A stretch of DNA of 64,000 bases from Deltaproteobacteria bacterium (GTDB lineage: Bacteria > Myxococcota_C > UBA6777), in the NCBI GenBank assembly GCA_002731275.1, contig PCBK01000124.1:62001-126000 (forward strand), written 5' to 3'. The translations under genes and the position numbers were made by a program. Each line of letters starts with the position of its first letter. Within the stretch, counting starts at the first letter, position 1. The notes beneath the pieces were generated by a model. That model saw only the letters and a list, made by a program, of their open reading frames with translations. It did not search any database and had not been told where the DNA came from. Positions 15,169 through 49,589 of the stretch are shown piece after piece.

Positions 15169-15293
15169 TCACAACGAAAGAAATCCTCCCAGCCCGGCAA
15201 GCGGAGCGCGCCAGCAAGGGGCAAGCGAAGCGCGCCAGCAAGGGGCAAGCAGAGCGCGCCAGCAAGGGGCAAGCAGAGCGCGCCAGTAAGTAA

Positions 15294-15313
15294 GGGCGAG
15301 TGGCAACTCGCCC
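15294..15313. repeat. Intergenic palindromic hairpin, copy 1
   Basis: GGGCGAGT and ACTCGCCC form an 8-bp stem around a GGCA loop. The same palindrome recurs at 15471-15490 and 22324-22343, and in a variant form at 44906-44925 and 44940-44959. Confidence 0.8.
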
Positions 15314-15345
15314 TCTTTGAGACGGCAGCCCGGCAAGCGGAGCGC

Positions 15346-15491
15346 GGCAGTCGCGCTCGTAGAGCGCAAAACAGACGATGCGTGAGCATCGTGGGGTCTG
15401 GGGTGAAAACCCCAGGATGGTGTCGGCAAGCGGAGCGCGCCAGTAAGGGGCAAGCGGAGCGCGCCAGTAAGGGCGAGTGGCAACTCGCCCT
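15346..15491. repeat. Structured dispersed repeat, copy A
   Basis: The element has four consecutive hairpins. GCGCTC/GAGCGC is at 15353-15367. ACGATGC/GCATCGT with GTGA loop is at 15375-15392. CTGGGGT/ACCCCAG with GAAA loop is at 15398-15415. The 20-bp palindrome is at 15471-15490. A near-identical copy lies in opposite orientation at 22323-22444. The copies differ by one loop base, one G/A change in a unit, and an extra 24-bp unit in this copy. It may be a MITE, a REP-like element or a terminator-type structure. Confidence 0.75.
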
Positions 15492-15576
15492 CTTTGAGAC
15501 GGATGTATAGGCAAGCGGAGCGCGCCAGCAGAGACCGTGGCAACTTTGAGACCTACCATCGGGAGCAAGTGGGTGG

Positions 15577-17200: not shown

Positions 17201-18409
17201 TTATTCGTAACGAAGAGCTTCGATTGGGTTGAGCATAGCAGCTCGTCTCGCCGGATAAATGCCAAAGAAAACTCCGACGAGAATGGCGAACAAGAAGGAC
17301 AATCCGATCGCCTGTAGAGAGAGAACTGTTTGCCAGGAGCCCATCTTGGAGATCAGCCAGGAAGCGCTCATTCCAAGAATCACCCCGATCAGGCCACCAA
17401 GGACACTCAGGACGACGGACTCCACGAGGAATTGCAACAAGATGTCTTTGTACGTCGCGCCCACTGCTTTGCGCACACCAATCTCTCTCGTGCGCTCGGT
17501 GACGGAGACGAGCATGATGTTCATGATCCCGATCCCGCCGACGAGCATCGAGATGGCGGCGATCGACGCGAGCAGCATGGTGAAGGTTCCTGTGACAGCG
17601 CTCATCGTCTCGAGGATCTCCTTCTGGTTGCGGATGTTGAAGTCCGGCTGTGCACCGGGCTGGATGCGGTGTCGTTTGCGCAAGAGTCGCGTGACATCCC
17701 ACTGCACAGCGTCCATCTTTGAAGCGGCGGCGACCTGTATGGTGATCGAGCGCAGGTAACGAATTCCAAAGAGTCTTCTTTGTGCGATATGGAGAGGAAT
17801 CACGACCTGATCGTCTGGATCTCTGTAACCCGATTGTCCTTTGGCTTTCAGCGTGCCGATAACCTGAAAGTTGATCCCGCCGATTTTGACGTCTTCACCG
17901 AGGGGATTTTGACCGGGGAACAACGCCTTGACGACTGTCGCGCCGAGGACGACCACTTTGCGGTTGGCGTGGACGTCGTTGATGTCGAAGAAGCGTCCCT
18001 GGTCGAGCTGAAAGTTGTTGACCGCAGGATAGGTGCTCGTCGCGCCGAGGACATTTGTGCTGGCGTTGCGGTTGAAGTACTTCAACTGCATCGATTTACT
18101 GACCTCTGGGGAGATGTATCGGATATCCGGGATCATTCGCTTGATCGCGTCGGCGTCTTTGTCACTGAGAGTGGTCACGCTCCCTGAACGGACAAAGCGC
18201 GAGCGGCGTGTCCCCGGGCGGACGATCAGCAGATTGCTGCCGAGACTATGGATGCGTTTCGAGACCTGGGCCTTGGCACCATCTCCCACGCTGACCATCG
18301 CGATGACCGCCGCGACGCCGATGATGATCCCGAGCATGGTGAGCAGTGAACGCATCTTGTTTGCGCGCAAACTTTGAAAGGCTATCTTTATCAACATCCA
18401 TGTTCTCAT
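17201..18409 (-). CDS. MacB-type ABC exporter permease (FtsX family)
   Basis: The protein has the MacB/FtsX layout. A first membrane helix (RSLLTMLGIIIGVAAVIAMVSVG) is followed by a large periplasmic domain (about 50-270) and three C-terminal helices. The conserved MLVGGIGIMNIMLVSVTERTREIGVRKAVGA marks the family cytoplasmic motif. ATPase and permease are separate genes here, whereas classical MacB fuses them. It lies 61 bp upstream of the TolC-like gene. The likely role is mechanotransmission-type export of a drug, peptide or lipid substrate through the TolC-like duct. Confidence 0.92.
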   Translation of the reverse strand: MRTWMLIKIAFQSLRANKMRSLLTMLGIIIGVAAVIAMVSVGDGAKAQVSKRIHSLGSNLLIVRPGTRRSRFVRSGSVTTLSDKDADAIKRMIPDIRYISPEVSKSMQLKYFNRNASTNVLGATSTYPAVNNFQLDQGRFFDINDVHANRKVVVLGATVVKALFPGQNPLGEDVKIGGINFQVIGTLKAKGQSGYRDPDDQVVIPLHIAQRRLFGIRYLRSITIQVAAASKMDAVQWDVTRLLRKRHRIQPGAQPDFNIRNQKEILETMSAVTGTFTMLLASIAAISMLVGGIGIMNIMLVSVTERTREIGVRKAVGATYKDILLQFLVESVVLSVLGGLIGVILGMSASWLISKMGSWQTVLSLQAIGLSFLFAILVGVFFGIYPARRAAMLNPIEALRYE

Positions 18410-22073: not shown

Positions 22074-22159
22074 TGAACTTTTTTGACGGATGGTCTTATT
22101 TGGACATGTTGCCACGGACTGTTCGATGAGTCGCTGTGCTCGCTAGGAGGGGGAGAGGC

Positions 22160-22334
22160 CATAGTACAGAGGAGGGCGAGTTGCCATAGTGCAGAGGAGG
22201 GCGAGTGGGCATAGTACAGAGGAGAGCGAGTGGGCATAGTACAGAGGAGGAGGAGTGGGCATAGTACAGAGGAGGACGAGTTGCCATAGTACAGAGGAGG
22301 GCGAGTTGCCATAGTACAGAGGAGGGCGAGTTGC
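22160..22334. repeat. Tandem repeat array, seven 25-bp units
   Basis: Units begin at 22160, 22185, 22210, 22235, 22260, 22285 and 22310, and differ at only a few positions. The 3' half of each unit (GGGCGAGTTGC) equals the left arm of the adjacent palindrome. The array therefore seems to have grown by repeated duplication of one arm. Confidence 0.9.
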
Positions 22335-22444
22335 CACTCGCCCTTACTGGCGCGCTTCGCTTGCCGACACCATCCTGGGGTTTTCACCCCAGACCCCACG
22401 ATGCTCACGCATCGTCTGTTTTGCGCTCTTCGAGCGCGACTGCC
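22323..22444. repeat. Structured dispersed repeat, copy B (inverted relative to copy A)
   Basis: This is the reverse complement of 15346-15491, lacking one 24-bp unit. It includes the GAAA-loop hairpin, the GTGA-loop hairpin, the GCGCTC stem and the 20-bp palindrome (22324-22343). The first-stem loop is TTC on this strand, against TAC for the reverse complement of copy A, while the stem bases are unchanged. Confidence 0.8.
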
Positions 22445-35765: not shown

Positions 35766-37172
35766 TTACTTATTGGGGAGCGTAAAGCTGAAGGTGGCTC
35801 CTGTGTCTTTGCCTTCGCTTTTTAACCATAGACGCCCACCGTGAAGTTCGACCAATCGCTTTGTGAGGGACAATCCCAGCCCAGTCCCTCCGAACCTCCG
35901 GTTGTATGCGGAGTCTATTTGTCGGAATGTTTCGAAGATCTCGGCTTGGTGTTGTTTGCCCACGCCAATACCGTCATCGATGACGGAGATGACCGTCGTT
36001 GTCTCTTGTGAGGATACCTCTAAGGAAACATTGCCTTTCTCTGGTGTGAATTTGATGGCGTTGGACAACAAGTTATAGAGGATTTGGTTCAGTTTTCGTC
36101 GATCTGCTTGTACGGATTGTTTCTTTTCTTCTAGCTGGAAACGAAATGATAACTCGATATCTTTGGAGCTGGCGAGTCCTTCAGCCAACTCAATTGCTTG
36201 CTTACATACTTCGTGAAGGTCGATGTCTTTGAGCGTCAGCTCAAGTTTTCCGCTCTCCACTTTTGAAAGGTCGAGGATGTCGTTGATCAATGTGAGCAGA
36301 TGATGTCCACTTTGGTGAATATGTCGGACCTGTCGTTGTTGTCTTGCATTGACGATGCCTGCGTGTTCGTCGATGAGCAGCTCCGAAAATCCGATAATTG
36401 CGTTGAGAGGAGTTCGGAGTTCGTGACTGACACTGGCGAGGAATGCGCTCTTGGCGCGGTTGGCTTTTTCAGCTTCCTCCTTGGCGTAGCGAAGAGATTC
36501 GTGGACTTCGCTTAGATGCAGTTCGTTCGAACGGATTTTTCGGATGTATCCATTAAATCGTAGAAAGAGCCATGTCCAAAACATCGCCAACAACAACGCA
36601 GCGAAGCCCGCAAGCCATGTGCTCATCGTGAGTGCTTGTGAGTGGGTCATGAGCTGCGTTGAGATATGTTGCTGTAGGGCTTGCTTTGCCTGGTGCATTT
36701 GCTGTGCGTAGATTTGTTTCCACCTGATGTAGGCCGTGCTCTTGAGAAGACCGGAAGCCCTCTTTTTTTTGCCTTGTTGGACCAGTTGGAGTGCGGATTG
36801 TTCAAGTTGAAGGAGTTTGCGGTTGGCGGTGTCTATTCGCGAAATCGCCTGTTTGTATTGAAGACTTCCCAGCTGTGTGCTCTTTTTTAGAGCTTGATCC
36901 AGCTTGCTTTTTGCTCGCTTATAAACGCGAACCCACTTTGTGTCTCCACTTGTGGCTGCGAGGTGGGCAGACATCGTCAGGGTTGTATCCCAATACGCGA
37001 TCTTTTCTGTGAGTGTGGCGTAGTGAAGCTTTTGCTCGACAAGGAAGCGCGAGGAGCGATTGCTTGTCCAAGCCGTGTAGCTACAAAACCCAATGGTCGA
37101 AAAGGTCAGGATGAGCCCCATCCAAAAGGTGAGCACTGGATATTCTTGTTGATTTTGTGTTTCCATCGCCAT
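35766..37172 (-). CDS. Membrane sensor histidine kinase
   Basis: Two membrane helices (about 16-36 and 190-215) bound a ~150-residue helical periplasmic domain of four-helix-bundle character. The transmitter has H-box [22 protein letters not shown]-box [14 protein letters not shown]1 DDGIGVG and G2 GGTGLGLSL. No receiver domain or adjacent response regulator is present. The start codon region (ATG at 37172 or 37166) lies inside a 25-bp inverted-repeat arm (37162-37186), and no ribosome site precedes it in the present orientation. This makes its expression interesting. Confidence 0.93.
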
Positions 37173-37186
37173 GTGTAAGAAAACAT
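37162..37186. repeat. Left arm of perfect 25-bp inverted repeat (candidate invertible segment)
   Basis: This arm is the exact reverse complement of 37320-37344 and contains the start codons of the histidine kinase. The arms are 133 bp apart. Identity stops at both ends of the arms. A chance occurrence at this distance is very unlikely. Confidence 0.9.
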
Positions 37187-37208
37187 CTAGTGATACAAAA
37201 GATAAAGG

Positions 37209-37238
37209 TTGACACTATGAACAGTCGGTTTCTGTATC
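37209..37238 (+). promoter_or_regulatory. TTGACA promoter inside the inverted-repeat-bounded segment
   Basis: A perfect -35 TTGACA (37209-37214) is followed after 17-18 bp by CTGTAT/TGTATC (37232-37238), a weak -10. It points toward the glyoxalase-like gene now, and would point toward the kinase if the segment were inverted. Confidence 0.35.
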
Positions 37239-37319
37239 GAGCAGTGTAGTGCCAATTGATTGAATTGAGATGTTCCAATGTTTGAGCAAGGGTTTATTTT
37301 GTTTGCAGGAGTATGGGAA

Positions 37320-37344
37320 ATGTTTTCTTACACATGGCGATGGA
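37320..37344. repeat. Right arm of perfect 25-bp inverted repeat
   Basis: This arm mirrors 37162-37186. It reads on the plus strand into a 26-codon ORF (37313-37393, MGNVFLHMAMDD start). The MAM in the arm copies the kinase start MAME. This suggests a duplicated 5' end or a recombination site. Confidence 0.9.
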
Positions 37345-37507
37345 CGATGTGCTGGTGAGTTGTTTTTTCAGTTTGTGTGGGTTTTTGTGGTAATGACAAG
37401 TGCCTTGAAAAGTTTTGTCTGTTGAAGTGTATGTGTGTTGGCCGCTCTTGTTTGACCATCGTCGCATGTGGCACGTGGAAGTCGGTCATGTGTTGTTTGG
37501 AGGTGTC

Positions 37508-38161
37508 ATGGAACTCGATCATATTTTTCTCTTCGTGGAGAATGCCGACAGGGCAATGTTGTCGGCTGGAGACTTTGGTCTTGTCGAGACGTATCGACGG
37601 GTTCATCCGGGCCAGGGAACGGCGAATATCTGCTATGCGTTTGAGAACGCGTTCTTGGAGTTGATTTGGTTGACGAACCGTGAGGAGGCGGAGAGCGCAG
37701 CGATTCGTCGTACAAGGCTCGCTGAACGTGCGGATTGGCATCGGGCTGGGACCTGTCCTTTTGGGATCGCGTGGCGAGGTCAGGAGGGGGAGCAGGAGCT
37801 CGTTGAGACGTGGCCATATACGCCTCCCTACCTCCCCGAGGGGATGTCGATTCCAGTCGCGACGATCAGCGAAGATCCATCACTGCCTATGTTCTTTCAG
37901 TCACCAGGTCGTTTCGCGCCAAGGGATTGGCCTGATGAGCGCAAAGGGCAACTTCAGTCGGCGTTGGGATATACAACGATTGAAGATATCGAGCTACAGG
38001 TGCCAAGAGGCCAAGGGATACCTGATGAGCTGAAGGTGTTGTCTGGGACCGGGTTGTTTTCGTTGGGACGAGCCGAGAGTTGGGAGGTGAAGTTGATGAT
38101 TGGGAAAGAGGACGGTACACGAGCAACATTGTCGTTACCTTTTTGGGAGTTGGATGACTGA
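37508..38161 (+). CDS. Glyoxalase-like domain protein
   Basis: The ATG at 37508 is preceded closely by GGAGGT. The opening MELDHIFLFVENADRA and the later pattern GTANICYAFENAFLELIWL match the Glyoxalase_3-like vicinal oxygen chelate fold, which carries a metal-binding His at H5 (DH) and Glu in LELIW. It is 217 aa and soluble. Members are involved in small-molecule modification or resistance, and the substrate here is unknown. It lies next to the candidate invertible promoter segment, which points toward it in the present orientation. Confidence 0.8.
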   Translation: MELDHIFLFVENADRAMLSAGDFGLVETYRRVHPGQGTANICYAFENAFLELIWLTNREEAESAAIRRTRLAERADWHRAGTCPFGIAWRGQEGEQELVETWPYTPPYLPEGMSIPVATISEDPSLPMFFQSPGRFAPRDWPDERKGQLQSALGYTTIEDIELQVPRGQGIPDELKVLSGTGLFSLGRAESWEVKLMIGKEDGTRATLSLPFWELDD

Positions 38162-49182: not shown

Positions 49183-49589
49183 AGCAGTCTGAGCTTGTCA
49201 ATCGCCTCATGTTTTAGGCCGTTGGATGGAAAAAAGCGTACGTAAGAGGGTCGGTGATGGAGTCTCAGGCAAGGCATGAGAAGGCGCAATAGCAGTGCTA
49301 TTGCAACGACGAATAACGATGCTTGGGGCTTCAGCAACAACCTCTGCGGACGTTTCTTTTTCTGTATCCTTTTTTCCATCCGATGGCCTGAAGTGCTGCA
49401 TCCTATTGAACTCTGGAGTGGTGTATTCTCTCCTGTCATATGGATACGCATTGCCATGCGTGCAGTCGAAGGGTGTTCTTCACTCCGAGACCTAAAGCTG
49501 TCGGACGTTTTTATATGTTAGATGTCCTTTCTTTTATGTACACTTTTTCGTAGCGTACAGATTCACTGAGCGCTCAGGAGGCAGGAGTA
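49183..49589. other. Intergenic region, 407 bp, containing a candidate structured RNA or MITE
   Basis: No protein gene is credible. The region holds the 174-bp element at 49216-49389, described separately. ORFs reported by simple six-frame reading here have no ribosome site. GAGCGCTC, a perfect palindrome, lies at 49569-49576, shortly before the next start. Confidence 0.6.
49216..49389 (+). ncRNA. Candidate structured RNA (or MITE): 21-bp terminal helix with nested hairpins
   Basis: The arm at 49216-49236 (AGGCCGTTGGATGGAAAAAAG) pairs along all 21 positions with 49369-49389, using two G-U pairs that are possible only for plus-strand RNA. Nested inside are ACGT/ACGT and AGAGG/CCTCT helices (49240-49249/49341-49353) and a GCAATAGC/GCTATTGC hairpin (49286-49304). 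The rod shape and length (174 nt) recall 6S-like RNA, but no family match is claimed. No T-run follows the right arm. Confidence 0.4.

Follow-up and report, generated by a model that had tools for sequence, protein, structure and literature searches.

Published invertons have arms of 10-40 nt (PMC11892184). As far as the available accounts characterise them, intergenic invertons (Jiang et al. 2019, cited in PMC11868660; PMC11892184) combine arms of 10-40 bp with a short, AT-rich intergenic segment that adjoins a gene for a membrane protein, and intragenic or partly intragenic invertons (Chanin et al. 2024, cited in PMC11868660) have one arm within coding sequence. A different process, template switching, has been described in yeast, where it makes the arms of short inverted repeats identical and can invert the spacers between them (PMC8604942). 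We analysed a 64,000-nucleotide stretch of DNA (the window) from the draft genome of a Deltaproteobacteria bacterium, in which a short inverted repeat overlaps the start of a membrane sensor histidine kinase gene, and compared this locus with each of these systems.

The locus resembles the intergenic invertons, as these accounts present them, in its arm length, its short AT-rich intergenic segment and the adjoining membrane-protein gene. It differs from them in that its candidate promoter does not rise above chance, one arm overlaps a gene start, no invertase lies nearby and the site has no second copy. With the intragenic invertons, so far as they are outlined in the citing source, it shares the arm placed within coding sequence, whereas here the identical arms leave the kinase frame from its ATG unaltered by inversion. 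Like the template-switch (quasi-palindrome) repeats, it has perfect short inverted arms of a kind that needs no recombinase, but in the yeast cases the arms are shorter and the spacers much shorter, and by that measure 133 bp is long (PMC8604942).

The inverted repeat and its surroundings

The first-pass annotation had described a perfect 25-bp inverted repeat enclosing 133 bp, with the start codon of the kinase in its left arm. Both features were recovered exactly: the arms are complementary at 25 of 25 nucleotides (100%) across a gap of 133 nt, and the kinase ATG (37172, minus strand) lies inside the left arm (Table 1). The coding sequence of the kinase, intact at 468 aa, has its opening 11 bases in this arm, and the right arm is covered by short open frames only, of 12 to 26 codons. 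Similarity between the arms stops sharply at both ends of both arms. Allowing up to 3 mismatches, each arm has its sole occurrence in the 10.75-Mb genome at this locus, and the assembly of the source genome carries the loop in one orientation only.

Table 1 Features of the inverted repeat and the adjoining genes (positions in the window).
Feature	Position	Strand	Description
Membrane sensor histidine kinase	35766..37172	-	468 aa; HisKA, HATPase_c
Left arm	37162..37186	-	25 bp; spans -14 to +11 of the kinase
Loop between arms	37187..37319	.	133 bp, 38% GC, single copy in genome
TTGACA	37209..37214	+	best -10 partner TGTATC at 18 nt, 9/12
AGGAG	37307..37311	+	1 nt before ATG 37313, 8 nt before ATG 37320
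Right arm	37320..37344	+	intergenic; perfect reverse complement of left arm
Glyoxalase-like gene (Glyoxalase_3)	37508..38161	+	right of repeat; ATG 37508; own GGAGG

With spacing limited to less than 5 kb, this is the longest inverted repeat in the window, the runner-up being 16 bp. We also took a census of perfect inverted repeats with loops of 40-1000 bp across 2.75 Mb of the source genome, where the tail expected by chance ends at about 16-17 bp. Besides the repeat in the window, nearly all census repeats of at least 17 bp belong to repeat families or local clusters whose arms are present in at least three copies, and the lone other repeat of this length with single-copy arms is one 19-bp pair. 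The 25-bp repeat is genuine in the assembly and lies far beyond chance.

Several known classes of element were considered and rejected. A MITE or transposon with terminal inverted repeats was set aside because arms and loop have a single genomic copy and because the sequences flanking the repeat, TTTGTGTT and CGATGTGC, differ and so show no target-site duplication. The arms are no more similar to the E. coli Xer dif site than shuffled arms are, and the window contains no Rfam element. A phage or plasmid origin was rejected as well: no similar DNA was found, and the arm has no exact match in viral and other genome collections, which may omit records that lie very close to that of the window. 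Five genomes of the phylum, all from one family, were available for comparison. In the four besides the source, we found no orthologous locus, and both the kinase N-terminus and the glyoxalase-like gene are absent from all four; a search of genome contigs with the kinase N-terminus also returned no relative.

Several other repeats were recorded in the window and genome. One hairpin element, about 162 bp long, occurs in genome G000 at C83:17345-17506 and 17646-17807 (L116), C100:7958-8119, C135:67409-67570, C4:64343-64505 and C142:8834-8995, with weaker matches in one related genome, G001. Its flanks and its loop (GGCTATCCTGGTTGCGCCAGCTGC) are conserved, and in four copies (both on C83 and those on C100 and C135) the stems of about 28 bp vary between copies, yet in every one of these the two sides of the stem are complementary, perfectly or nearly so; the structure is kept by covariation. 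A MITE-like hairpin family with arms GGCCGTCGGATGGAAAAAA is found in the window at 49224-49381 and at L045:16353-16526, with 27 arm copies in 2.75 Mb (up to 3 mismatches). The similar loop length of this repeat had made it a candidate sister inverton, which we rejected because it belongs to an unrelated multi-copy family. A second MITE-like family, with arms GCCTAAGTGGTCCTCTCGCGAA in at least 21 copies, lies at L059:524-644, L093:3238-3355 and L112:6844-6955. On C107, iterated AAACATGTTTTT palindromes and GCGTTCCG repeats are clustered in intergenic DNA (L157:10010-10420) that adjoins a 1074-codon frame; a 24-bp repeat on C107 belongs to a local cluster of iterated repeats and was rejected as a comparable case. 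The window itself also contains short tandem and interspersed direct repeats of 21-37 bp at 15190-15530 and 22158-22344.

Proposed origin of the right arm

The best reading of the repeat, which we put forward tentatively, is that the 5′ end of the kinase gene recently underwent a templated inverted duplication. On this account, 25 bp spanning the translation start (-14 to +11) would have been copied in reverse complement 133 bp upstream, into intergenic DNA, most likely when replication or repair folded back or switched template a single time. Since the coding sequence sits in the left arm, we take that arm as the probable original and the right arm as its copy, which would be either recent or held identical through further switching.

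We favour templated duplication because coding function is confined to the left arm, the arm sequence has no further match in the genome and we see no sign of switch machinery. Further points on its side are that there is no similarity past the arm ends, that no invertase-type recombinase was found, that inversion brings a gain of neither promoter nor ribosome site and that read-through RNA folds strongly, as detailed below, and that template switching is a published route to identical short arms (PMC8604942). We found no evidence for a dedicated switch. Against duplication, the spacer is long for template switching, a selected recombination site would also show perfect identity over 25 bp at a gene start, and we infer the event from the present repeat rather than from an ancestral sequence lacking the right arm.

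Possible inversion of the loop

Alternatively, a site-specific recombinase encoded elsewhere in the genome may flip the 133-bp loop, giving the kinase a different 5′ leader and hence altered expression. We regard this as a serious rival, though somewhat less probable than templated duplication. The arm length, the loop length and the AT-rich intergenic loop beside a membrane-protein gene all match invertons, the 25/25 bp arms and 133-bp loop agreeing with the described pattern, in which a short segment is bounded by inverted repeats of about 10-40 bp (PMC11892184). The perfect, single-copy arms are far past chance, and the genome encodes six recombinases. Of the phase-variable promoter layout proposed in the first-pass annotation, the arrangement of arms and loop therefore stands, within the ranges of invertons, but the support expected from a promoter and a ribosome site does not, and a dedicated invertase was not found.

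The proposed promoter was based on a perfect TTGACA box, which is present on the plus strand but lacks a good -10 partner; the 9/12 score that it reaches with TGTATC was also attained in 303 of 500 shuffled versions of the segment. A consensus promoter scan of 37000-37600 passed no site. By these tests, all of which used the sigma-70 consensus only, the candidate promoter in the loop does not outperform shuffled sequence.

The ribosome-site argument is right about the reading frame but fails on spacing. Counted over 959 long ORFs, Shine-Dalgarno 4-mers in this genome are most frequent 5-10 nt ahead of the ATG. The AGGAG that a flip was proposed to place before the kinase is present, as is the ATG at 37313, which is in frame with the kinase, but after a flip the two would be separated by 1 nt instead of the usual 5-10 nt, with the kinase ATG 22 nt away. 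Inversion would therefore still leave the kinase without a normal ribosome site. At 8 nt from the ATG at 37320, the same AGGAG would be placed to serve an out-of-frame ORF of 26 codons. In the present orientation no Shine-Dalgarno 4-mer precedes the kinase start, in agreement with the earlier description, yet about 41% of long ORFs in the genome likewise have none by the same test, and the missing site is not unusual here. Because the arms are identical, a flip leaves the kinase start as it is, and the coding sequence is the same in both loop orientations.

A search for tyrosine and serine recombinases across the genome detected five of the former (XerC, XerD, an integron integrase and two phage-type integrases) and one of the latter, which is Ccr-like. 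The integron integrase (TIGR02249, 451 bits) is located on a 9.3-kb contig (G000 C77, L014). None of the six is on the kinase contig, bearing out the statement that the window has no invertase gene, and no protein of the Hin, Fim, Mpi or Piv type scored over its curated cut-off in this genome, which is about 95% complete; nor was an IS110/Piv-type protein found. The absent invertase weakens the inversion reading, and only weakens it, because of the level of genome completeness and because some invertases act at a distance. The unclassified integrases of this genome could act on the arms. The site is, however, not reused at other genomic loci, which also counts against inversion.

Stated in full, the inversion reading would be an inverton driven by a recombinase, in a phylum of large genomes that is thinly sampled. 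Its recombination site would lie across the kinase start codon, and a flip would swap the 5′ leader while leaving the sensor histidine kinase protein unchanged. We consider this version doubtful. The leader swap that it entails would include a well-placed ribosome site for the short out-of-frame ORF.

Predicted RNA structure at the kinase start and significance of the repeat

The one predictable effect of the repeat would be at the RNA level, as a 27-bp hairpin over the kinase start. In a minus-strand RNA begun upstream of 37344, this stem would enclose the kinase start codon; in one begun inside the loop, the codon would stay free of it. Read-through RNA is predicted to fold at -58.5 kcal/mol, compared with -30.0 ± 3.8 for shuffles (z -7.5), and RNAs begun inside the loop fold like shuffles. 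The RNA fold is not independent evidence of function, because the stem follows from the repeat itself.

Some insertion sequences shield their transposase gene with read-through hairpins. The repeat is like these in its long stem, which would bury a start codon in RNA arriving from outside, and differs from them in lying outside any transposon and having no copies. It may have been kept as an RNA switch or insulator, selected because transcripts arriving from upstream would have the kinase start concealed by the long stem, an explanation that we judge improbable. The position of the arm, with the start codon at its centre, and the strong stem in read-through RNA, with none when RNA begins in the loop, would suit such a role; but any perfect inverted repeat gives a stem of this kind automatically, and the loop has no recognised promoter from which a free transcript could begin.

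Very unlikely is an assembly or amplification artefact in which the right arm is absent from the living genome: the draft comprises 200 contigs with 5.5% estimated contamination, but unique sequence flanks both arms on either side and the inverted match is just 25 bp, whereas fold-back chimaeras usually carry long inverted stretches.

If the loop does flip, the locus would represent a phase-variable sensor kinase with a repeat arm on its start codon, in a phylum represented by five genomes of one family. If it does not, it would offer a clean case in which a perfect inverted repeat together with a TTGACA box is insufficient for an inverton call.
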